Assembly: GCF_009911265.1 (NCBI RefSeq)
Contig: NZ_QXXA01000001.1
Coordinates: 186,001-250,000 of the forward strand
DNA length: 64,000 nucleotides
Direction of reading: 5' to 3'
Source: Senegalia massiliensis
Lineage (GTDB): Bacteria > Bacillota > Clostridia > Tissierellales > SIT17
The notes beneath the pieces are model-generated. The model saw nothing but the letters and a program-made list of their open reading frames with translations. It had not been told where the DNA came from and ran no database searches. Each line of letters begins with the position of its first letter. The first letter of the stretch is position 1. The translations under genes and the position numbers were made by a program. Shown one piece after another: positions 18,700-56,505 of this stretch.

Positions 18700-18940
18700 T
18701 ATAAAAATTAGAGGCAATGAGAAAGAGGAGTAGACAAGAGAACTTTTAGAGAATGAATCCCTTGGCTGAAAGGATTCAGAAGTAAACTTTTGTTGAAGGT
18801 AGCTTTTGAGCTTTCAGATTGAACTAGTAGTAAATCTGAACGGACAATGTTCGTTAAAACTAAGAGAGTCAATTTCAGAATTGAAATTAAGGTGGTACCG
18901 CGATTACCTTCGTCCTTATATAAGGATGGAGGTATTTTTT
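18700..18940 (+). promoter_or_regulatory. T-box leader (tRNA-Val) controlling valS-folC
   Basis: The T-box core AAGGTGGTACCGCGA lies at 18889-18903 and is followed by a terminator hairpin (ACCTTCGTCCTTA / TAAGGATGGAGGT, 18905-18940) with a T run. Upstream, stem I carries the specifier in the context GAA-GTA-AAC; GTA (18782-18784) is a valine codon and agrees with valS. Uncharged tRNA-Val is expected to stabilise the antiterminator and allow read-through. Confidence 0.93.
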
Positions 18941-18960
18941 AGTTTATAAGGGGTGGTCTT

Positions 18961-19131
18961 ATTTTTAAATTAGGTATAGTAATATTTTTAATTAGTAGTG
19001 TAATAGTTTTAGGTGCTGATAGACAGTATAATAAAGGGAAGATAAAAGATTTGAAATCCTTACTTAAAATAAAAGTATCAGGTCTTTTACTTACTATTAT
19101 TTCAGTTATATTAATGATTTATGGAAAATAA
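18961..19131 (+). CDS. Small two-span membrane protein, apparent ATT start
   Basis: A 56-codon frame fills the gap between the T-box terminator and valS. No ATG, GTG or TTG can start it in full, but AAGGGGTG ends 5 bases before an ATT at 18961, the same arrangement as infC at 43398. The product would be two hydrophobic helices (about 4-19 and 39-54) joined by a basic loop (RQYNKGKIKDLK). Its stop is 15 bases before valS. Either a real ATT-started protein or the remnant of a longer gene; the intact frame and clear membrane pattern favour the former. Confidence 0.5.
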   Translation: MFKLGIVIFLISSVIVLGADRQYNKGKIKDLKSLLKIKVSGLLLTIISVILMIYGK

Positions 19132-19146
19132 AGAGGAGTGAATTAA

Positions 19147-21798
19147 ATGGAGAATTTAGCAAAAACGTATAATCCTAAAGAGTTTGAAGATAGGCTATAT
19201 AATGATTGGAATAATAAAGGTTATTTCAAAGCAGATGTAAATGAAAATAAAGAACCATTTACTATTATGATGCCACCTCCTAATGTAACAGGAAATCTTC
19301 ACATGGGTCATGCATTAAATAGTACTATTCAAGATATTTTAACAAGATGGAAGAGAATGGACGGTTATGAAGCATTATGGCTTCCTGGAACTGATCACGC
19401 TAGTATTTCTACTGAATCAAAAGTAGTTACCCGTATAAAAGAACAAGGTCACAGTAAAGAAGACTTAGGAAGAGAAGGATTTTTAGAAAAGGCTTGGGAA
19501 TGGACAGAAGAATATGGTGGAAATATAAAAAATCAATTAAGAAAACTAGGTGTTTCTTGTGATTGGTCAAAAGAAAGATTTACTCTGGATGAAGGTTTAA
19601 GTGATGCAGTAGAAGAAGTTTTTATTAGATTATATGAAAAAGGTTTAATATATAGAGGAGATAGAATAATAAATTGGTGCCCTAGTTGTGCTACAGCTAT
19701 TTCAGATGCAGAAGTTGAACATCAAGAATCACAAGGTAAATTGTGGCATGTAAAATATCCTGTAAAAGGAGAAGATAAATTTATAGAAATAGCAACTACA
19801 AGACCTGAAACAATGCTAGGTGATGTAGCAGTTGCAGTAAATCCAAATGATGAAAGGTATGAAGATTTAGTAGGTAAAACTCTTATTTTACCACTAGTAG
19901 GAAGAGAAATACCAATAATTAAAGATGAATACGTTGAAATGGAGTTTGGAACTGGTGCAGTTAAAATAACTCCAGCACATGATCCTAATGATTTTGAAAT
20001 AGGACTAAGACATAACTTGGAAAATCTTAAAATATTAGATGATAATGCTAAAATAAATAGTAATGGTGGAAAGTACGAAGGTCTTGAAAGATATGAAGCT
20101 AGAAAACAAATTGTATCTGATTTAGAAGATAAAGATTATTTAGTAAAAATAAAAGATCATGATCATAATGTAGGTCATTGTGAAAGATGTGATACTATAG
20201 TTGAACCTATTATATCAAAACAATGGTTTGTAGAAATGAAGCCTCTAGCAGAACCTGCAATAGAAGCTTTAAAAAATGGTAAATTTAAATTTATACCAGA
20301 AAGGTTTGAAAAGATTTATTTAAATTGGTTAGAAAATATTAGAGATTGGTGCATATCAAGACAGTTATGGTGGGGACATAGACTTCCAGTATATTATTGT
20401 AAAGATTGTGGTGAAGTAATTGTATCTAAAAAAAGACCAGAAAAATGTACGAAATGCAACTCAGAAAATTTAATTCAAGATGAAGATACACTTGATACTT
20501 GGTTTTCATCAGCACTTTGGCCTTTTTCAACATTAGGTTGGCCACAAAACACTAAAGAATTAGAATATTTTTACCCTACAGATGTACTTGTAACTGGATA
20601 TGACATTATATTCTTCTGGATTGTAAGAATGGTATTTTCAGGTGTTGAACAAATGGGAGAAGTTCCTTTTGAAAATGTATTTATTACAGGACTTGTTCGC
20701 GACTCTGAAGGTAGAAAAATGAGTAAATCTCTAGGAAATGGAATTGATCCATTAGAAATAATAGACGAATATGGTGCAGATGCTTTAAGATTTTCTCTTA
20801 TAACGGGAAATACTCCAGGTAATGATATGAGATTCTATGTTGAAAGAGTAGAATCAAGCAGAAATTTTGCTAATAAATTATGGAATGCTTCTAGATTTGT
20901 AATAATGAATTTAGGGGAAGAATTTCATTTTACAGGGATAGATAATGAAAATCTAAAGGTAGAAGATAAGTGGATAATTTCTAGATTAAATAGTGCTATA
21001 AAGGAAATTGATGATAATCTAAATAAGTTTGAATTAGGACTTGCAGCACAAAAGATATATGATTTTACATGGAATGAATATTGTGATTGGTATATAGAAA
21101 TGGTTAAACCTAGATTATATGGAGAAGACGAAGCTGATAAAATTACAGTTAAAAATGTTCTTATACATGTATTAGGGGATATAAATAAATTACTTCATCC
21201 TTTTATGCCTTTTGTAACAGAAGAAATATATAGTTATATAAATGAGAGTAATGAAAGTATAATGGTATCTAATTGGCCGGAAAATGATGATAAATATAAT
21301 TTTGTTGAAGCAGAAGAACAAATTGATTTTATTATGGATGCAATAAAAAGCATAAGAAATATAAGAGCTGAAATGAATGTTATTCCTTCTAAAAAAGCAA
21401 AGGCTATATTTGTAACACAAAATTATAATAAAAGAAAAATATTAGAAAATAATGAATTATTCTTTACTACACTTGCTTCAGCATCTAGTGTAGAAATAAA
21501 GGAAAATAAAGATGGAATATCAGATGATGCAATGAGTGCTGTTGTAGAAGGTGCTGAAATATTTTTACCTCTTGAAGAGCTTGTAGATTTTGATAAAGAG
21601 ATAGAAAGATTAGAAAAAGAAAAATCAAGGTTAGAAAATGAAATTAAAAGAGTAAATGGAAAGTTATCAAATAAAGGATTCGTAGAAAAAGCTCCAGAGT
21701 CTATAGTAAATCAGGAGAGAGAGAAGAAACAAAAATACGAAGGGATGCTAGATAAAGTTGTAGAGCGATTAAACAACATTATAGATAAAAAAGATTAA
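19147..21798 (+). CDS. valS: Valyl-tRNA synthetase
   Basis: 883 residues, the usual length. Class I motifs are present: HMGH (52-55) in [16 protein letters not shown] and KMSKS (524-528). The editing domain carries [10 protein letters not shown]. Zinc-finger-like CxxC pairs are seen at CKDCGE and CTKCNS. The last 70 residues form the lysine/glutamate-rich coiled coil that contacts the tRNA. It charges tRNA-Val with valine. Ribosome binding site AGAGGAG. Regulated by the T-box and co-transcribed with folC, 15 bases downstream. Confidence 0.98.
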
Positions 21799-39329: not shown

Positions 39330-39556
39330 TATAATAACTTTGAAAGGTCGAGTAAATTGAAAACAGTTTAAAGAGAGGAAATACAATAGCTGTAAGTGTT
39401 TCTAAATATGTTCAATTGAAAACTAACCTGGAGTTGAATCTGAACCATTAGGCTAAAGATTTCCGCTAATCACGTTAAGATTTTAAAGTAAAAACAAGGG
39501 TGGAACCGCGAATATACCTCGCCCCTAGAGTATTCTAGGAGTGAGGTTTTTTATTT
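39330..39556 (+). promoter_or_regulatory. T-box leader (tRNA-Thr) controlling thrS
   Basis: Core AAGGGTGGAACCGCG at 39496-39510, then a terminator stem (CCTCGCCCCTAGA / TCTAGGAGTGAGG, one mismatch) with T run to 39556. The specifier context is GAAA-ACT-AACCTGGAG; ACT (39422-39424) codes for threonine, in agreement with the downstream gene. Confidence 0.93.
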
Positions 39557-43230: not shown

Positions 43231-43366
43231 GAAAACAAAGTAGAAGTTTCCGCTTCTCACCTTATGGCTTTAAGCTTATTAGGTTAATAGAACAAAAAAC
43301 ATTTAGGGATATTTATGTTTTTTTCTATTTATGAGAAAGCGGAGTTCAAAGAACTCGCTTTTTTTA
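43231..43366 (+). promoter_or_regulatory. L20-type autoregulatory leader of infC-rpmI-rplT
   Basis: A 135-base leader ends in a terminator (AAAGCGGAGTTC / GAACTCGCTTT with a bulged G, then T run, about 43336-43366). The early segment CCGCTTCTCA (43250-43259) is complementary to TGAGAAAGCGG (43332-43342), which is the 5' arm of that terminator, so the two structures are exclusive. This is the plan of the known L20 leader, in which ribosomal protein L20 favours termination. Confidence 0.75.
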
Positions 43367-43397
43367 TGTGTTTAAATTAAATAGGAGGTGCCTTGAT

Positions 43398-43907
43398 ATT
43401 AAAGAACTTCAAATTAACGAGCAAATTAGAGACAGAGAAGTAAGACTTATTGATTCCAATGGTGATCAAGTAGGAGTTGTTCCTGTTAAAAAAGCTCAAG
43501 CTATTGCTTATGACAGGAAGCTAGATCTTGTAAAAGTAGCTCCAAATGCTAAACCACCAGTTTGCAGAGTAATGGACTACGGTAAGTACAAATATGAACA
43601 AGCTAAAAAAGAAAAAGAAGCTAAGAAAAATCAAAAAACTATTAACATAAAAGAAATAAGACTTACACCAAGAATAGAAGAACATGACCTTAATGTTAAA
43701 AGTAGTAAAGCAATCAAATTTCTTGAAAACGGAGATAAAGTAAAAGTTACAGTTAGGTTTAGAGGAAGAGAGCTTGGACATACAGAAGTTGGAAAAGAAG
43801 TACTTGGACAATTTGCTGAATTGACTTCTGAAGTAGGAGTTATAGATAAAAAAGCTAAAATGGAAGGTAGAAACATGGTAATGTTTTTATCTCCAAAAGA
43901 GTTATAA
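43398..43907 (+). CDS. infC: Translation initiation factor IF-3, ATT start
   Basis: 169 residues. Start is placed at ATT 43398, 7 bases after AGGAGGTG. An in-frame GTG at 43368 would put the ribosome binding site inside the gene. An ATT start is well known for infC, since IF-3 itself rejects such codons and so limits its own synthesis. The protein (INEQIRDREVRLIDSNGDQVG, here abbreviated INEQIR, then VCRVMDYGKYKYEQ and KVTVRFRGRE) is a clear IF-3. First gene of the infC-rpmI-rplT operon. Confidence 0.97.
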   Translation: MKELQINEQIRDREVRLIDSNGDQVGVVPVKKAQAIAYDRKLDLVKVAPNAKPPVCRVMDYGKYKYEQAKKEKEAKKNQKTINIKEIRLTPRIEEHDLNVKSSKAIKFLENGDKVKVTVRFRGRELGHTEVGKEVLGQFAELTSEVGVIDKKAKMEGRNMVMFLSPKEL

Positions 43908-47639: not shown

Positions 47640-47659
47640 TATTTAAAAGTTATGATGAA

Positions 47660-47870
47660 GAGAGTAAATATTTGACACATATACAGAGAGAGAATATCTT
47701 GGCTGTAAATATTCTTATATGTGATGATATTGAAGTTCACTTCTGAACTGCTAGATTGAAAAAAAGTAGATCTATGCCAGCTTTGCTGTTAAAATTTTGA
47801 GTGGCTATATTTTTATAGCTATAAGAGTGGTACCGCGGATAACCTTCGTCTCTTTGAGATGAAGGTTTTT
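47660..47870 (+). promoter_or_regulatory. T-box leader (tRNA-Phe) controlling pheST
   Basis: Core AAGAGTGGTACCGCGG at 47823-47838. Terminator AACCTTCGTCTC / GAGATGAAGGTT with one G-T pair and T run (47841-47870). Stem I is closed by CACATATA / TATATGTG, and the specifier context is GAAG-TTC-ACTT; TTC (47736-47738) is a phenylalanine codon. Confidence 0.93.
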
Positions 47871-56257: not shown

Positions 56258-56298
56258 AAATAGAAATTAATATTTAAAATTCAATGAAGAGGATAGTA

Positions 56299-56505
56299 AA
56301 ATATAAAAAAGAGTCTTAGAGAGTCGGGAAATGGTGAAATCCTGATACCTTTTAATATTTGAAGAGAGCCTTGGAGAAACCATCTGAAATGAGTAAGATG
56401 TGTCGGTTGAACCGTTATTTTATTATGAGTGGACAATAAATTTTTGTCAATTAGAGTGGTAACACGGGTTTAACTCGTCTCTTATATAAGAGACGAGTTT
56501 TTTTT
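56299..56505 (+). promoter_or_regulatory. T-box leader (tRNA-Arg) controlling argS
   Basis: Core TAGAGTGGTAACACGGG (56452-56468) differs from the other three leaders, which have GGTACCGCG or GGAACCGCG. A perfect terminator (AACTCGTCTCTTA / TAAGAGACGAGTT, 56472-56498) with eight T follows. The specifier context GAAG-AGA-GCCTTGGAG aligns with the thrS context GAAA-ACT-AACCTGGAG, so the specifier is read as AGA (56365-56367), an arginine codon. Stem III (GACAA / TTGTC) is also visible. Confidence 0.88.

Follow-up and report, generated by a model that had tools for sequence, protein, structure and literature searches.

The stretch of Senegalia massiliensis DNA analysed here (64,000 nucleotides, hereafter the window) carries a T-box leader with its intrinsic terminator ahead of a short open reading frame (ORF), which is in turn followed by valS, the gene for valyl-tRNA synthetase (ValRS) (Table 1). 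An initial annotation had described a 56-codon frame opening at ATT, with a Shine-Dalgarno (SD) motif 5 nt before it and ending 15 nt short of valS, and the coordinates confirm this layout: AAGGGGTG occupies 18948-18955, 5 nt ahead of ATT 18961, and 15 nt separate the stop from the valS ATG at 19147. The frame is closed upstream by a TAG at 18940-18942, and no in-frame ATG, GTG or TTG lies between this TAG and the conserved N-terminal core of the encoded protein, which bears out the earlier statement that a usable canonical start is missing. The proposal that translation begins at ATT is supported by comparison, the aligned codon being ATG in relatives, and ATT 18961 appears to be the only plausible start of the ORF. 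Two features expected of a near-cognate start are present, a position fixed by homology where no usable ATG, GTG or TTG exists, and an extended SD at proper spacing. Duplex energies for the SD were calculated against what we take to be the typical Bacillota 16S tail, which may not be this genome's own. When the segment 18943-19128 was subjected to mononucleotide shuffling, 53 of 20,000 shuffles were open in some forward frame.

Table 1. Position and supporting evidence of the small ORF, its neighbours and infC in the window
Feature	Position	Strand	Evidence
Valine T-box leader, presumed specifier GUA	18708..18920	+	Rfam RF00230, 133.2 bits
T-box intrinsic terminator: hairpin 18905-18934 and U tract	18905..18940	+	Fold and sequence
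Extended Shine-Dalgarno UAAGGGGUGGU, 3 nt before ATT	18947..18957	+	Duplex -10.9 kcal/mol
Start codon ATT (ATG at the homologous position in relatives)	18961..18963	+	
ORF for small two-helix protein, probably membrane	18961..19131	+	56 sense codons plus TAA at 19129-19131
valS, next cistron	19147..21798	+	NCBIfam NF004349, 1291 bits (cut-off 704); TIGR00422, 1206 bits
infC with ATT start, positive comparison	43398..43907	+	NCBIfam TIGR00168, 227.6 bits (cut-off 60)

The leader ahead of the ORF has the make-up of a valine-type T-box operon, in which a T-box with a Val specifier precedes the gene, and the segment 18870-18945 folds with -23.1 kcal/mol (z -3.87). A T-box was also found upstream of the homologous gene in 31 of the 32 order-level loci described below, by Rfam (17 of 17 scanned) or as a T-box motif, the locus in genome G002 being cut by a contig end. 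At the aligned position that we presume to be the specifier, a GUA triplet occurs in 31 of the 32 homologous loci, the remaining one again being truncated by a contig end; together with the RF00230 match, this agrees with the valine T-box control that had been suggested for the ORF. Three further T-boxes lie in the window (39331-39529, 47643-47856 and 56275-56485), before thrS, pheS and argS, the last of which was scanned as a fragment and scored just below the cut-off. No separate leader ORF of at least 40 codons was listed between any of these three T-boxes and its synthetase gene.

After a first search of 60 relatives, we searched 249 genomes of the same order with a profile and obtained matches in 39 at E 0.01. 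Seven weak matches (E 2.3e-4 to 0.0076) were counted as absent, and homologues with an intact frame ahead of valS were found in 32 of the 249 genomes (31 strong and the weaker G008), at estimated distances of 8-363 nt from valS. Selection on the encoded protein was assessed in 12 species pairs, nine of which gave finite dN/dS values of 0.12-0.27, with dS above 1 in four of the nine; one of the remaining pairs was saturated at synonymous sites and two were identical. Third codon positions were the most changed in all six pairs counted, and residues D20, I28 and K38 are invariant across 25 aligned rows. The single informative pair in which both members carry ATT, the window's genome (G000) and G002, gave a dN/dS of 0.15, similar to the pairs with ATG, while the ORFs of G000 and G001 are identical and carry no signal of selection between them. 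The alignment of relatives proposed in the initial annotation thus returned 32 intact frames with a synonymous bias (dN/dS 0.12-0.27), and not the broken or missing frame that it had envisaged as the adverse outcome. Nor do the homologues extend upstream through the T-box terminator, the other outcome that it had named: none of the 32 has a credible start there, the in-frame ATG inside the terminator hairpin of G011, G027 and G044 being devoid of SD pairing (+0.7 kcal/mol). On this comparative evidence, the ORF of the window is a real, conserved gene.

We also searched 27 genomes of the order that gave no match, 26 of which yielded valS, with an intact start in 24. In 21 of these 24, a T-box motif and valS are 61-137 nt apart and the interval lacks any frame of 38 codons; the other three showed either a distance of 239 or 382 nt or no such motif. 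Because the interval between T-box and valS is this short and holds no such frame, absence of the gene is clean in most of the genomes searched.

Seven weak class-level matches of the first profile were also located upstream of valS, and a profile built from them matched 78 of 391 genomes of the class at E 0.01. Seventy of these loci were taken in, one per genome, and eight genomes with partial matches were left out. The profile is matched by 69 of the 70, and 59 stand ahead of valS, with an estimated -5 to 156 nt between the two, including L214, whose valS, matched at only 34% identity, could be a different synthetase. The order and class profiles align with a probability of 96.6%. Eight other loci, six of which were read, have no valS within the sequence covered. 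In two class-level relatives, L158 and L159, the ORF that follows in the sequence covered is not valS but resembles dusB (tRNA-dihydrouridine synthase); the neighbour of L158 scored 143.9 bits with TIGR00737 on a fragment and 139.2 bits with Pfam Dus, and that of L159 was judged by eye. Extending the search to two more families yielded a single additional genome with a match. A phylum-wide search with profile A3 gave 0 of 299 at E 1e-4, which shows little, as the same profile fails to recover the genome of the window. As far as these profiles reach, the gene family is old and found across the class.

Near the model start, each of the 59 valS-linked members at class level offers an in-frame codon of canonical type, a statement about its presence that does not imply its use; starts were chosen there from SD energies, with ATG given a bonus, and some are uncertain, e.g., that of L216, which has no SD. 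Weak starts are therefore not a general property of the family. Within the order, start codons were read by eye together with SD pairing, and the starts of the 32 orthologues, whose positions agree to within one codon, are ATG in 19, TTG in six, GTG in one, ATT in four (G000, G001, G002 and G015) and ATA in two (G011 and G027, identical to each other). No canonical in-frame start is available in G000, G001 and G002. In G003, of the same genus, ATG stands exactly at the ATT codon, with the SD 4 nt away as against 3 nt in the window. Two orthologues have a second option, G032 (TTG), which could start at ATT instead, and G059, in which another in-frame ATG with good SD pairing lies 19 codons upstream. 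As ATG, GTG or TTG is present in the 59 class-level and in 26 of the 32 order-level relatives, the ATT/ATA start is probably derived. A quick tree of valS from 31 genomes, without G208, requires at least three changes between canonical and non-canonical starts, and the ATT/ATA cases fall into two clades, the Anaeromonas clade and one of G015, G011 and G027.

Three control genes in the same genomes gave a different picture. By eye, rpmI and rplT each start with ATG in 29 of 29 cases, and valS with ATG in 27, TTG in three and GTG in two of 32, so that ATT or ATA was seen in 0 of 90. Relatedness was not corrected for in any of the Fisher tests against these controls, which gave p 0.0002 for all sequences (6/32 versus 0/90), p 0.004 with duplicates removed (4/30 versus 0/84) and p 0.07 when, with duplicates removed, only sequences lacking any canonical start were counted (2/30 versus 0/84).

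The gene for initiation factor IF-3, infC, offers a comparison within the same window. Read from ATT 43398, the start given in the initial annotation, the frame matches TIGR00168, which confirms it as infC. An L20 leader (Rfam RF00558) is located at 43232-43372, directly 5' of infC. We found infC in 30 of the 32 genomes; at the codon homologous to the ATT of the window, 29 have ATT and G187 has ATC. Some of the other infC loci also have an in-frame ATG or TTG upstream of ATT. In the infC of G187 (L118), an in-frame ATG lies two codons before the ATC, just after the SD, and may be the real start. Like the small ORF, infC combines a near-cognate codon with an extended SD, and in the six genomes with an ATT/ATA start of the ORF the infC start is ATT as well. 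However, ATT is retained at the infC start in 29 of 30 genomes, whereas the start of the ORF varies; the two start codons therefore do not co-vary. A further difference is that no autoregulatory link is known for the ORF. Sensitivity of the ORF to IF-3 is plausible.

Near-cognate starts backed by an extended SD are already known as a kind. In Escherichia coli, pcnB reportedly has an AUU start that limits its translation; it shares this codon with the ORF but is an unrelated protein in an unrelated organism. The portion of the report by Kohl et al. (2026; PMC13009471) that we consulted describes AUU and AUA starts with an extended SD in Staphylococcus aureus, namely those of cvfC1 (AUU), ccpN (AUA) and infC, and gives reporter activities of about 10% of AUG in poor medium, with ccpN reaching up to 30% in rich medium. 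According to the same portion, IF3 modulates the inefficient decoding of such starts. Of these genes, cvfC1 resembles the ORF in encoding a short protein (61 residues) from the first position of an operon with a near-cognate start and an extended SD. In contrast, cvfC1 and ccpN are different proteins, a T-box is not mentioned for them in that portion, and the non-canonical start is reported there as conserved, whereas orthologues of our ORF switch between ATG, TTG, GTG, ATT and ATA. The suggestion that the ORF is a second gene with the start-codon logic of infC may thus hold within the window, but not as a general statement, given cvfC1 and ccpN in S. aureus (PMC13009471) and, reportedly, pcnB in E. 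coli.

The protein itself was predicted by AlphaFold2 to form a hairpin of two helices (residues 2-24 and 31-54; mean pLDDT 90.8, pTM 0.63), and residues 19-38 carry a net charge of +5. Two membrane helices with a basic loop had been noted before; the helices are predicted and the loop is basic as described, while their location in the membrane is probable, judged from hydrophobicity. Positively charged loops face the cytoplasm under the positive-inside rule, and therefore the loop of this protein would do so. Pfam and NCBIfam scans of the window protein and ten relatives (two order-level and eight class-level) gave nothing above cut-off, and a Pfam scan of the 25 alignment rows matched one row to DUF7521 (E 0.0057) and one to EamA (E 0.0079). 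A PDB sequence search found no match at E 1, and Foldseek against the PDB returned generic helical hairpins only (best E 1.1). In the open full-text literature, outside of which most subscription papers lie, we found no description of this valS-upstream ORF.

Membership in the CLC_0170 family (NCBIfam NF042414), whose profile has 56 positions, the same length as the ORF, was considered and rejected, both by score (13.6 bits, E 0.048, against a cut-off of 30 bits) and by context, as its members adjoin spore-germination-like ORFs and not valS in the ten loci that we read. The window's genome carries a separate member of that family (L075, G000:C5:216343-216504). For the CLC_0170-family proteins L066-L085, L075 included, the neighbours in the ten loci read resemble GerA, GerB or GerC by eye, and the neighbour of L066 matches Pfam GerA with 128 bits.

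Several other explanations of the ORF were weighed. That it is a chance open frame, as its shortness and missing canonical start could suggest, is extremely improbable in view of the homologues that 32 order genomes carry at this position and of the selection seen at the codon level. It is also very unlikely that the gene recently lost its start in these lineages and is now decaying behind a dead ATT. The canonical starts of 59 class-level and 26 of 32 order relatives would fit such a loss, but the frames of all six ATT/ATA genomes are intact, the two ATT members G000 and G002 show a dN/dS of 0.15, similar to that of ATG pairs, the ATT/ATA members retain both the extended SD and its distance from the start, and the same kind of start change has arisen in two clades. 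Alternatively, G015, G011 and G027 could initiate at an in-frame GTG that is present in all three of them, three codons upstream, leaving Anaeromonas and its close relatives (G000-G002) as the only truly non-canonical cases. We regard this as unlikely, since the GTG is part of the SD and its own pairing amounts to -0.9 to -1.8 kcal/mol, versus -9.9 to -10.3 kcal/mol for ATT/ATA, and since an identical GTG lies three codons ahead of a good ATG in G003.

A different proposal is that the ORF is mainly a translated leader that tunes valS by coupling, with terminating ribosomes reaching the valS SD and the protein itself mattering little. The stop of the ORF and the valS SD do adjoin (15 nt gap), three class-level homologues overlap valS by their estimated starts (gaps -5, -2 and -1), and the gap to valS is 14-15 nt in the four ATT/ATA sequences as against a median of 34 nt for 19 ATG sequences (p 0.03, a post hoc comparison of related genomes with hand-adjusted gaps). 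However, this difference fades when all 11 distinct non-ATG sequences are included (p 0.09), gaps to valS reach about 360 nt, many genomes of the order have no ORF, and purifying selection acts on the amino acid sequence, in which D20, I28 and K38 do not vary across the 25 rows. A coupling leader of this type is, altogether, quite unlikely. The short ATT/ATA gap would also fit a weak start that limits how far the ORF interferes with valS initiation or feeds it, but this is no proof.

The reading that we favour, with a probability of about 0.78, is that the ORF is a real gene for a 56-residue membrane hairpin, the first in a valine T-box operon with valS, that it initiates at a weak AUU and that the protein itself is under selection. 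The sequence evidence gives good support to a T-box-controlled cistron with weak initiation. From the anatomy of the leader, uncharged tRNA-Val would cause read-through of the T-box terminator, and the cistron would be transcribed mainly in this state; as the T-box is switched on by uncharged tRNA-Val, the membrane protein and ValRS would therefore be made together. The extended SD would place ribosomes for initiation at the near-cognate AUU, and an AUU rescued in this way would give the first cistron a low rate, with the membrane protein well below ValRS. The weak start would probably also make the gene sensitive to initiation stringency, e.g., to IF-3 activity. Selection would keep the protein itself and not the mere act of translating it. 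Low-level co-induction with ValRS is likely to be the underlying logic, and if we had to name a role, it would be that of a low-copy partner or regulator in the membrane, required in valine limitation. It is tempting, if decidedly tentative, to extend this to an undescribed small membrane protein tied to ValRS across the class, whose dosage has been tuned repeatedly by switching the start between ATG, TTG, ATT and ATA, with a tRNA-sensing switch of transcription and an IF-3-sensitive gate of translation acting in series on a single cistron.

Gene finders that accept only ATG, GTG and TTG as starts, as common callers generally do, would probably skip such genes. The small protein family is tied to valS across a bacterial class, and its scanned members are without a Pfam or NCBIfam match. 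Its orthologues, moving between normal and near-cognate starts, would provide a natural series in which explanations for the evolution of weak starts could be tested.
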